This document shows positions 35,652 through 62,677 of a DNA stretch of 64,000 nt, piece after piece (within the stretch, counting starts at the first letter, position 1; each line of letters begins with the position of its first letter). The position numbers and the translations under genes are program-made. This stretch comes from Candidatus Dadabacteria bacterium. Lineage in GTDB: Bacteria; Desulfobacterota_D; UBA1144; Nemesobacterales; Nemesobacteraceae. A model generated the notes under the pieces. The model was not told where the DNA came from. It saw only the letters and a list, made by a program, of their open reading frames with translations, and ran no database searches. The stretch covers positions 1 to 64,000 of the forward strand of contig VXTZ01000012.1 of the NCBI GenBank assembly GCA_009837205.1, read 5' to 3'.

Positions 35652-36413
35652 ATGAAATTTCTAAGATTCAAAAACAGCAGCCAAAAACCCGTGTTCGGAG
35701 AGTATGTCGACGGAACCGTTATCGAGATAGAAGGAGACATATTCACAACCTGGTCGGCAACCAGCACGCGGCACGACTACTCTGACATCAGACCTCTTGC
35801 CCCCTGTCTTCCGACAAAGATCATAGCGGTAGGGCTTAACTATGAAGACCACGCAAGGGAAATGAAAAGAACTCCTCCCGAAGATCCTATGCTTTTTATG
35901 AAGCCGTCGACGGCCGTAATCGCCCATCATGAAGAGATAAAATATCCGGTGCACATGTCAAACAGGGTAGATTACGAAGGAGAACTCGGAGTGGTGATAG
36001 GAAAGAAGGCCCGCATGATAGAGGAGGAGCAGGCCCTAGAATATGTATTCGGATATACCTGCATAAACGACGTAACGGCAAGAGATCTTCAGGCAAAAGA
36101 CATACAGTTTACAAGGGGGAAGGGGTTTGATACTTTCGCCCCTCTGGGCCCCTTCATAGAAACGGAAGCCAATCCTGCAGACCTTCGGATAAGGACTTTC
36201 CTGAACGGTGAAGTAAAACAGGATTCAAACACAAAGAACTTGATATTCAGCGTACCGAAACTCATAAGCTTCATATCAAAGGTGATGACCCTTCTTCCGG
36301 GGGATATAATAGCTACCGGAACTCCTTCAGGGATAAGTCCGATGAAGCCGCAGGACACAGTGGAAATTGAAATCGAGGGGGTCGGGAAACTCGAAAACCG
36401 CGTCAGCCTGTAG
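35652..36413 (+). CDS. Fumarylacetoacetate hydrolase (FAH) family protein
   Basis: 253 residues. FAH fold blocks are KIIAVGLNYEDHAREM, LFMKPSTAVIAH, VDYEGELGVVIGKKAR (metal-binding Glu residues), and GFDTFAPLGPF. The usual length fits the small FAH group, which includes 2-hydroxyhepta-2,4-diene-1,7-dioate isomerases and acylpyruvate hydrolases. The exact substrate cannot be chosen. No aromatic-degradation genes are adjacent. The ATG at 35652 lacks a clear ribosome-binding site. Confidence 0.85.
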   Translation: MKFLRFKNSSQKPVFGEYVDGTVIEIEGDIFTTWSATSTRHDYSDIRPLAPCLPTKIIAVGLNYEDHAREMKRTPPEDPMLFMKPSTAVIAHHEEIKYPVHMSNRVDYEGELGVVIGKKARMIEEEQALEYVFGYTCINDVTARDLQAKDIQFTRGKGFDTFAPLGPFIETEANPADLRIRTFLNGEVKQDSNTKNLIFSVPKLISFISKVMTLLPGDIIATGTPSGISPMKPQDTVEIEIEGVGKLENRVSL

Positions 36414-36520
36414 AGAAGTCTCTCATTTCCGCCCGCAAGCTGTTCCACTCAGCAAAACCTGATGAATTTGGTTTTCTGCTATGTCTGGGAAACAATGTAT
36501 GGTCAAGTGGTAAAAGAAAG

Positions 36521-38226
36521 TTGAATCTCCATTACGAAATTAGAATTCTTTTCCGCGCACTGCTTATAGTTAGCATTGCCGGGGCCGTTTCCTGTGGCGG
36601 AAGCGGAAGTGCGGAACCCCCGTTGTCCCAGTGCGATCTTGCCCCACAGAGAAACGAGCAGAGGTTGTCCGGCAAAAAAAGAGAAGACTATTATCCCAAA
36701 GTGTTCAGCCGTGATTTCTCCCGTGATTACGGTGCCGATATATCTCCTGAAGAAAAACATTACGATACTGTAAGAAAAGTAAGCCGTTCCGTCTTCGAGA
36801 TGGAGTTCATAGGGAATAATGTATCTGGGGCAGCAGGTTCGGGATGGCTCATAGCGCCAAGATATGTAGTTACGGCAGCGCACAACTTCGACGATTTCGA
36901 CGATAGTGGTCAAGCAAGTATACGTGTCCATACTTTTGACGGAGATACCATAGAGGCGGAAAAAATCTATGCCACCCGAAAAAGGACAACAGGAACAGAC
37001 CTGGCGTTAGTCCGCCTCAAAGAGGAAAGTGACGCCGTTCCAATGAAAATAGCGGAGGAAAATCCAGAAAGAAATGAACTTTTGATGGGGATGGGAGGAG
37101 GCGCCGCATTAGGTGGGCTTGGCGGATGGACAGTCTCCGCGGGACCGGCTCTTGAGTTAAGAGAAGGCCGCACTCCCCCCCCCTGCACGCCGGGAGAATA
37201 TACCATGCGGTGCCTATTGTCAAAGGAATGAGCGGAGGGCCTATATTCAACGACAGAGGAGAGGTCGTTTCCATCATATCCGCGATTCGGGGTGGACCTC
37301 ATTTCGAAGGCATACTCAGGAACAGGTTTGGTGTCACACCTTTTCGGGTTCCTAGTTCGCCGCCGCAAAATCTTTGGGTTTATGGTTTTGTTCAGCCAGA
37401 CCCCAACTCTCTCTCCTTCGGACCGAATCCCGCGGAGCTTAGAGAAGTTTTCGACAAAATTCCCGATGAAGAAAAACCGGATAATGCCGGAGAATACAGG
37501 AGTGACAACAAGTGGGAAAAAGCCGGACACGAGTTCGGCAACGAATACAGCCCGTTTCCGCTTGATCAGTTTGATCACATGCAGGACATATACAAACGGG
37601 CGCGCGAAGCCACCGTGGAACTGCGTGTTGGTCCCAACAGATATGGTTCCGGATTCATATACGACGCTGATACTGTCATCACCGCGGGACACGTCGCTCC
37701 CATAAAAGGCGAAACAGTATATCTTACGACGAATGATCTCAAAATTTACAATGGAACTGTTTTTAAGACTCAGTACCAGGCAAAACTCTATGGATGCGAC
37801 ATAGCAGTTATAAAGACGAATGAACCACTCCCACCGGGAGAACACCAAATTCTCGAGATAGCTGACGACTCTTCGCTTCAGTGCGGAGATCCGCTTGTCG
37901 TTATAGGTTCCGCCGACTTTTACAATAGCGTGGGTCATCTTCAGGGAGTTGGTGCCGTATACATGAGCACTGAAACATACATATCGAAATTTATCTCGCA
38001 CTCCAGTGCCGCCGGCATGAGCGGCGGGCCCGTGGTAGATAAACACGGCCGGGTGGTTTCCCTGTCTTCACAGGGCGTTGGCAAGGCGGGGGAGTGGCGT
38101 GATCCCGGACCGTTTGTAATCCGCACCCGCCTTCCGGTTTATTTTGGGCAGGACTTCTTTGAGGGACCTAACGCGGAAACCATAAAAAGATTTGTTGATG
38201 AGGATGAATTTTTCTGTCCAGAGTGA
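36521..38226 (+). CDS. Lipoprotein with two tandem trypsin-like domains, frame broken at a C9 tract
   Basis: The first frame (TTG at 36521, stop at 37231) starts with a lipoprotein signal peptide (ALLIVSIAGAVSC with Cys at the lipobox). The first protease domain supplies His in VVTAAHNF and Asp in TGTDLALVRL. Its Ser (GMSGGPIFN) is only in the next frame, which is open through 37180-38226. The switch falls in a run of nine C at 37175-37183; ten or seven C would join the two frames without other change. The second protease domain is complete: VITAGHV, CDIAVIKT and GMSGGPVV. The gene is either phase-variable, a decayed allele, or affected by a sequencing error. The location is expected to be the periplasm, membrane-anchored. 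Confidence 0.78.
37175..37183 (+). repeat. Homopolymer of nine C inside the protease gene
   Basis: Nine consecutive C at the exact point where the protease-like lipoprotein changes frame. Tracts of this type vary in length by slipped-strand mispairing in other bacteria. Confidence 0.9.
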
Positions 38227-38335: not shown

Positions 38336-39406
38336 TTGCCTAAGATACTAGTGATCCCGGGAGACGGGATAGGGGTCGAAGTAACCGAAGTCAGCGTGTC
38401 AATACTCAATGCCGTCGGCGAGAGAAACGGCATTGAATTCACGCTTGAAAGCGATCTTCTCGGCGGATGCGCCATAGACGCCCACGGTGTCCCAGTAACC
38501 GAGGAGACAATAGAAAAAGCCAAGCAGAGTGACGCGGTGCTTCTTGGAGCCGTGGGAGGCCCGAAATGGGAAAACCTTGAGCACCACCTAAAACCCGAAA
38601 GAGGACTCCTTGAGCTGAGAAAGCAGCTTGACACCTTCGCGAACCTGAGACCCGCGATCGTCTACGCGGCCCTTGCCGACGCGTCCACGCTTAAAAGGGA
38701 AGTCGTTGAAGGGGTCGACATAATGGTCGTTAGGGAACTTACAAGCGGAATATATTTCGGACAGCCGAGAGGAGCAGAACAGCTCGGCGAAAAAGAGAAC
38801 AAGGCGTTTAACACCCTTAGCTACACAACTTCCGAGATAGAACGGGTGGCGAAAATGGCTTTTGAGATTGCCAGGAAAAGAAGAAACAAAGTCACTTCCA
38901 TAGACAAATCCAATGTTCTCGAATCAATGGTGCTCTGGAGAGACACCGTAACCGAGCTTCACGAACGTCATTTCTCCGATGTTACGCTTGAGCATCTGTA
39001 CGTGGACAACGCGGCGATGCAGCTTATAAGAAGGCCCGCCGATTTCGACGTAATGCTGGCGGGGAACATGTTCGGCGATATAATAAGCGACGAGGCGGCT
39101 CAGCTCACCGGCTCCCTAGGCATGCTGCCCTCGGCAAGTGTCGGTAACGAAGGGGCCATATACGAACCGGTTCACGGAAGCGCCCCCGACATCGCCGGCC
39201 AAGGCATAGCAAATCCCATAGCCTCGATTCTCTCGATGGCCATGATGCTGCGTTACTCCTTTGACATGGACGGGGCCGCCACGCAGGTTGAAGAAGCCGT
39301 AAGGAAGGTCCTTGACGATGGCTACCGCACATCCGACATATACGAGGAAGGGAAAACAAGGGTAGGAACAGAGGAAATGGGATCTCTCATACTCGGCGAA
39401 CTGTGA
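38336..39406 (+). CDS. leuB: 3-isopropylmalate dehydrogenase
   Basis: 356 residues from a TTG preceded by GGAAGGGA. It has LVIPGDGIGVEVTEVS at the start, ELTSGIYFGQPRG, the substrate-side IDKSNVLESMVLWRDTV, and NMFGDIISDEAAQLTGSLGM. It oxidises 3-isopropylmalate in leucine synthesis with NAD+. Other leu genes are not adjacent; mfd follows after 25 bases. Confidence 0.95.
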   Translation: MPKILVIPGDGIGVEVTEVSVSILNAVGERNGIEFTLESDLLGGCAIDAHGVPVTEETIEKAKQSDAVLLGAVGGPKWENLEHHLKPERGLLELRKQLDTFANLRPAIVYAALADASTLKREVVEGVDIMVVRELTSGIYFGQPRGAEQLGEKENKAFNTLSYTTSEIERVAKMAFEIARKRRNKVTSIDKSNVLESMVLWRDTVTELHERHFSDVTLEHLYVDNAAMQLIRRPADFDVMLAGNMFGDIISDEAAQLTGSLGMLPSASVGNEGAIYEPVHGSAPDIAGQGIANPIASILSMAMMLRYSFDMDGAATQVEEAVRKVLDDGYRTSDIYEEGKTRVGTEEMGSLILGEL

Positions 39407-61086: not shown

Positions 61087-62677
61087 CTGAAAAACTGACT
61101 TGGGTTACCGAAATAATATTCTCTACGGTCAAAATCTCCTGGATAACTTCTTCACTAACCTCGGTATCGACGTTCGTAAAAACTATGGCTTCCCCGCCGG
61201 CGGATTTTCTTCCAAGGTGCATCCGCCCGATGTTTACGCCGTTTTTCCCGAGGACAGAACACATGGAACCTATGAAGCCCGGGCGGTCATAGTTGTGGCT
61301 CACAAGCAGGAATCCCTCGGGAACGACGTCGATATCGACCCCGTTCACCTTGACTATCCTTCCGTGGTTCCCGCTGAAAACGCTTCCCGAAATTTCGTTG
61401 GTCGCCTCGCGGGTCGTAACAGTTACGGTAATGAGACTTGTGTACTGGCTCATGGCCGCGGATTTTGACTCCACCACCTTTATTTTTCTTTCCTCGGCTA
61501 TCGACGGAGCGTTAACGTAGGTCACCGAGATATCCATTATGTGCGAGAGAAAGCCTTTCAGCACGGAAACCGTCAGGTAGCTGCAGTCCATTTCGGCCGC
61601 CTCTCCCTCGTAAGTCACCTCTACAGTGCGAACCGCGCCCTTGCAGAGCTGCCCGTGAAGACTGCCTATCTTCTCGCAGATTGACATGTACGGCCTCATG
61701 ACGGCAAGCTGCTCCGTTGTAAGAGACGGCATATTAACCGCGTTTCTGACTACCCCTTTCTGCGCGAAATCTATAAGCTGCTCCGCCATGGTGGTCCCGA
61801 CCTTTATCTGCGCCTCTTCCGTTGAAGCGCCTAGATGCGGGGTGAGCACTATGTTCTCATCGACCGAGAGAACAGGGTTTTCGGGATCTATGGGCTCTGA
61901 AGTGTAAACGTCAAACGCCGCTCCTCCCACCTTGCCTTCGAGGAGGGCCTCGGCCATGTCCGCCTCGTTCACTATCCCCCCCCTGGCGCAGTTAATCACT
62001 ATCACCCCTTCTTTCATCTTCTCAAAAGATTCAGAGTCCACGAGATCCCTCGTCTCGTCCGTTAGGGGCGTGTGCACCGTTATAACGTCCGAGCGGCGGA
62101 AAAGCTCATCCAGGGAGACAAGCTCGATGCTGAGCTTCTTCGCGGCTTCCTTGCTTAGGTAAGGATCGTACGCGATCGCCTTCATCTTAAGACCCATAGC
62201 ACGCTCTGCCACCAGCTTTCCTATGTTTCCGAGGCCCACAAGACCTATCGTCTTTCCATAGACCTCAACTCCCTTGTACTTGTTCCTCTCCCACTTGCCT
62301 GATTTTATCGAGGAGTGGGCCTGGGGAATCCTTCTGGCAAGGGAAAGCAGCAAGGTGATGGTGTGCTCCGCAGTGGTTATCGAGTTTGACTCGGGGGTGT
62401 TCATAACGGCCACCCCGTTTCTGGTCGCAGCGTCAAGGTCTATATTGTCTATCCCTATTCCGGCGCGTCCTATGATCCGAAGCCTGCCACCCGAAGCCTC
62501 TATGACTTCCTTTGTAACCTTCGTAGCACTTCTTACCACGAGGCCTTCATAGTCCTTTATTATATCGATAAGCTCGCCGGGAGAGATGCCTTTTCTCTCG
62601 TCGACCTCTACCCCCTCGGCGGCCTTAAGAAGCTCAAGACCCTGCTTAGCAAGTCCGTCGGTTATCAGTATTTTCAA
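61079..62677 (-). CDS. serA: D-3-phosphoglycerate dehydrogenase
   Basis: 532 residues from the TTG at 62677, seven bases after GGAGG; a longer frame upstream lacks one. The NAD-binding domain has TIGLVGLGNIGKLVAERA. The catalytic Arg is in NCARGGIVNE and the His in LTPHLGASTEEAQ. The long C-terminal region has the intervening domain and an ACT domain (NYDRPGFIGSMCSVLGKNGV). It makes phosphohydroxypyruvate in serine synthesis. It is the first gene of the leftward operon. Confidence 0.95.

Follow-up and report, generated by a model that had tools for sequence, protein, structure and literature searches.

The protease locus and its frame break

The window is the 64-kb stretch of DNA analysed here, which lies on contig C12 of a draft genome of 1.69 Mb in 35 contigs, labelled G000, from a Candidatus Dadabacteria genus. 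It contains a protease gene that is split between two overlapping frames, with the following features and neighbours:

35652..36413, + strand: FAA hydrolase family protein, upstream neighbour (E=4.7e-72)
36521..37231, + strand: first frame, with a predicted lipoprotein signal, the His and Asp of trypsin-like domain 1, the C tract and a TGA stop (Trypsin_2, E=1.1e-10)
37175..37183, + strand: homopolymer tract of nine C (C9), in a variable-length loop just 5' of GMSGGP
37186..38226, + strand: second frame, with the domain 1 Ser motif GMSGGP, a linker and a complete trypsin-like domain 2 (Trypsin_2, E=1.1e-19)
38336..39406, + strand: isocitrate/isopropylmalate dehydrogenase family protein, probably leuB, downstream neighbour (E=1.2e-140)

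The first frame starts with TTG and encodes 236 aa; it reads C9, the longest C/G run within the window, as CCC CCC CCC and ends at a TGA (37229-37231) that lies 48 bases 3' of the tract. The second frame, which overlaps the first, is open from just past the tract (HAGRIYHAVPIVKGMSGGP from 37186) through 38226 with no further stop or frame break, leaving C9 as the sole lesion in 1.7 kb. The tract is internal to the gene, ~220 codons in, and alignment with homologues places it in a loop of highly variable length between AGPALEL and the catalytic GMSGGP motif. The initial annotation had placed a frame break exactly at a nine-C tract, with the first frame crossing the tract to end 48 bases later and conserved protease sequence continuing in the other frame; each of these points is borne out, the last by the Trypsin_2 match as well as by the reading frame. 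Its arithmetic, according to which ten or seven C would restore a full-length protein, is likewise correct. The locus thus has two hallmarks of contingency loci, namely a long homopolymer inside a gene and, judging from the reading frames and the homology across the junction, a single-base length change that toggles between full-length and truncated products.

Domain structure and family of the protease

The gene product is predicted to be a lipoprotein with two trypsin-like domains. Its N-terminus has a hydrophobic start followed by a lipobox-like AVSC (judged by eye), with which the earlier description of a "surface protein" is compatible. The motifs of the catalytic triad can be read in domain 1 (TAAH / TDLAL / GMSGGP) and again in domain 2 (ITAGH / CDIAV / GMSGGP), so that the trypsin-like domain with His-Asp-Ser triad of HtrA/DegP proteins is present. 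In profile comparisons the best solved structures are HtrA-type proteases (HTRA1, HhoA, HTRA2), matched one domain at a time, and each domain thus resembles the HtrA/DegP/HhoA-type proteases in matching both HtrA-type chains and Trypsin_2. Unlike these proteases, the window protein combines two trypsin-like domains in one lipoprotein and falls far under the NCBIfam DegP/HtrA cut-offs (TIGR02037, 53.7 bits vs a curated cut-off of 416). The family also differs in its distribution: at E<=1e-40 it is restricted to this genus among 58 genomes of the phylum. A single-protein scan of the genome collection returned zero matches; a DNA search of relatives together with a profile search yielded 11 essentially intact homologues (564-605 aa) in 7 other genomes of the genus, a count that includes two matches in genome G012 for which one TAG is scored within the match.

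None of the homologues carries a run of seven or more C at the tract site, which bears on the reading of the locus as an expressed frameshift gene. On that reading, slippage of the ribosome or of RNA polymerase at C9 would let one allele yield a share of full-length protein; a run of nine C, decoded as CCC CCC CCC, is a conceivable slippery site, and the two frames overlap. Programmed frameshift sites are usually conserved, however, and C9 is absent from all homologues. Moreover, the RNA downstream of C9 has no significant structure (z = -0.77), on which ground programmed frameshifting was rejected, and we regard slippage expression of any kind as highly improbable.

Constraint on the interrupted gene

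Both halves of the gene are about equally similar to the intact homologues (mostly 51-60% identity before the break vs 56-62% after it), and in both halves third codon positions are the most divergent (0.43-0.47 vs 0.22-0.30). The downstream half therefore shows no relaxed constraint. Given the equal conservation of the two halves and the lack of any lesion other than C9, an old pseudogene was rejected; with no further stop or frameshift, the same pattern implies that the break is recent or that the gene is still under selection.

A recent break could mean simple inactivation, in which C9 would be a mutational hot spot that supplied a redundant gene with its first frameshift en route to a pseudogene. 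Several features of the family would fit this course: the number of paralogues varies across the genus, the two other family copies in the window genome are truncated (one adjoining transposase sequence, the other fused downstream of an IS110-like gene), and in G009, the closest sister, most of the gene is missing and only a remnant survives at the same site. Against it stand the missing second lesion in 1.7 kb and the sustained constraint on the downstream half, and we consider this course unlikely.

The DNA flanking the protease site is 97-99% identical between the window and G009. Across 35652-38226, compared with L155 of G009, identity in the FAA hydrolase gene drops to 78.6% and very little of the protease is left between these flanks, which suggests a patch of gene replacement or recombination.

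Long C/G runs in the genome

Genome-wide, C/G runs of length 7, 8, 9, 10 and 11 number 39, 9, 11, 7 and 1, respectively (19 in total for lengths 9-11), one 51-G artefact being excluded. Geometric extrapolation from 7 to 8 predicts ~2 runs of length 9, whereas 11 are observed. A synonymous-codon shuffle of the window genes, on the other hand, predicts ~20 C/G runs of at least 9 per genome. As this total is similar to that observed, the long runs are not an excess, and a plain excess was dropped as sole proof of a switch. The same shuffle predicts many more runs of 7-8 than are found; runs of 7-8 are thus avoided and runs of 9-10 are not, and it is this difference, together with the kind of genes affected, that is noteworthy. 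As a control, A/T runs of at least 9 number 16 genome-wide, despite short A/T runs being several times commoner in the window. Within the genus, genomes carry 2-29 C/G runs of at least 9, compared with zero in 14 genomes of family f8 (~1 Mb each), a contrast for which base composition may account in part.

The genic runs of 9-10 fall in lipoproteins (the window protease included), secreted proteins and IetS, an IetS-like S8 peptidase of a phage-defence system, and in zero housekeeping genes, with signal peptides assigned by eye. The affected genes are thus surface, secreted or defence genes, as at contingency loci:

window protease: C9, broken
secreted sCache-domain protein: C10, intact
lipoprotein with the run directly 3' of the lipobox: G9, intact
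lipoprotein: G9, broken
IetS: C9, broken
fn3, Ig/cadherin-like, LRR and other secreted proteins: runs of 9-10 in leader regions

The distribution of broken frames also speaks to the simplest alternative, a homopolymer error of sequencing or assembly in a gene whose true sequence is in frame. The sequence at C9 is the consensus of a draft MAG, and polyG artefacts occur elsewhere in the assembly, such as 51 G beside an N gap on C23. Genic broken frames, however, fall at tracts of secreted and defence genes, while C8 runs are in frame in all five long housekeeping-type ORFs that contain them, and tracts of these kinds recur at matching sites in independent sister assemblies. An error at C9 is accordingly rather improbable. 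Runs of 51 G or C beside the N gap (G000:C23 near 19873) or at a contig start (G006:C1:1-51) themselves look like sequencing artefacts. One C8 run lies in the window (61976-61983), an ordinary run that is in frame within a long intact minus-strand ORF.

The remaining runs are intergenic or adjoin IS-like ends. On C21 a G9 (L069:137-145) separates TTGACT from a weak -10-like site just 5' of what is probably a lipoprotein gene; it could act on promoter spacing, an arrangement that is suggestive by eye. A recurrent IS-like end, AATTTGAC with its upstream bases, is found at or a few bases from G runs of 8-10, at the following positions:

L084:3236
L087:3915
L092:5692
L086:1723
L078:1501

The element may target C/G runs. 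Two near-identical contigs, G000:C34 and G012:C44, have gaps only at the junction of IS-like end and G run; they agree over 7.6 kb (G000:C34:26-7691) at 99.4-99.6%, compared with ~92-94% for the same two species elsewhere on C12, which suggests recent transfer or cross-binning.

Intact and broken alleles in sister species

Other loci of this class vary among species of the genus in both tract length and frame state, and for three genes both states are found in sister species with the only net frame-changing indel at the tract. The first gene is IetS (PADLOC IetS, E=1.2e-208 for the G009 copy), which in G009 (C52, L157) has C6 and an unbroken frame of 564 aa and in G000 (C31:6592-6600, L090) is broken with C9. 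The two sequences align over 1,532 bp at 97.3% identity with a single gap, at the tract; the difference between C9 and C6 includes a base change beside the tract and is hence not pure slippage. The second, a lipoprotein on C13, is broken with G8 in G000 and continuous with G9 in G009. The third case, a secreted protein, concerns a different position in that same protein, where G9 is continuous in G010 and G10 broken in G002, the two being 92% identical. A family of secreted proteins likewise shows both states: its members share a short conserved leader, M(K/R)NS..RN.P.QLEFSSTPP, with C9 behind it and a signal peptide after that, and while one of two G001 copies is continuous, the other is broken, as are those of G005 and G000. 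At leader-plus-C9 loci (L089:5045-5125, L053, L180, L181, L182 and L191) the passenger domains behind the signal peptide differ, which suggests that leader and tract form a portable switch cassette.

Other tracts are less clear-cut. A lipoprotein on C26 is broken at G9; its relatives are without a tract, most of them differing there by two bases. An intergenic tract on C26 measures 9 in G000, 7 in G009, 6 in G012 and 10 in G013, in surroundings that contain few other gaps. Not every tract appears to vary, since the C10 of a surface gene at C12:79329 has equal length in three genomes. That other genes within the genus repeatedly show intact and broken alleles at tracts is a further argument against mere inactivation of the protease.

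A candidate phase-variation switch

We therefore favour, with a probability of roughly 70%, the reading of C9 as a reversible translational phase-variation switch, that is, a simple-sequence contingency locus. C9 is most likely an on/off switch because related genes in this genome and its sisters occur both intact and broken at such runs, and the contingency-locus structure proposed in the initial annotation gains its support in the same way. This is support by class rather than by direct comparison of alleles, and the window tract counts as a member of the class on account of its architecture and the type of gene.

Slipped-strand mispairing in replication would gain or lose C in the tract, and the sampled majority sequence would represent the gene in its OFF state. 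Ribosomes would pass CCC CCC CCC, exit the homologous frame and stop 15 codons on, leaving a truncated lipoprotein that lacks both the first catalytic serine and the whole of the second protease domain; frame-restoring tract lengths would yield the full tandem-trypsin lipoprotein of ~570 aa. We infer the reversible length change, the surface location of the protease and a benefit from switching, which might arise under pressure from hosts, phages or grazers. MutS has a homologue in 13/14 genomes, that of the window included; its presence is compatible with slippage, yet points to no mutator background, and loss of mismatch repair was rejected as a cause. Several observations weigh against a switch: homologues elsewhere are without the tract, G009 is without most of the gene, the C10 is constant, the shuffle yields a similar total and the IetS length difference is not pure slippage.

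Relation to known systems and biological meaning

Phase variation by homopolymers has been described mainly in cultured pathogens. Intragenic poly-G/C contingency loci have been surveyed in Campylobacter and Neisseria (PMC6321876, PMC5084427), where C/G runs of ~8-11 lie inside or just before surface-protein genes, one- or two-base frame changes switch the product and a genome has many such loci, all of which are shared by the tracts described here. Our locus differs in that it comes from an uncultured phylum, with a single allele at the window locus, and in that its tract lies inside the gene, after ~220 codons, instead of at the 5' end. In Listeria inlA, which has a reversible poly-A frameshift, a coding homopolymer likewise truncates a surface protein by frameshift and a further indel restores it; there the poly-A lies near the 5' end and frequencies have been measured, whereas the window gene has a poly-C in mid gene (PMC2831843).

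Among the papers covered by our searches, none joins Dadabacteria with phase variation and none joins phase-variable genes with IetAS. The mechanism, that of poly-G/C contingency loci, is known; the novelty lies in the lineage, and perhaps also in the breadth. On balance we lean towards a set of phase-variable genes that extends across this genus of an uncultured phylum, with long C/G tracts in secreted proteins, lipoproteins and IetS, a portable leader-plus-C9 switch and one secreted protein in which G tracts would have been gained at two places in different clades. The window bacterium may be sponge-associated, as the naming of such MAGs suggests. If this reading is true, stochastic switching of surface and defence functions would also occur in uncultured, probably host-associated Dadabacteria.
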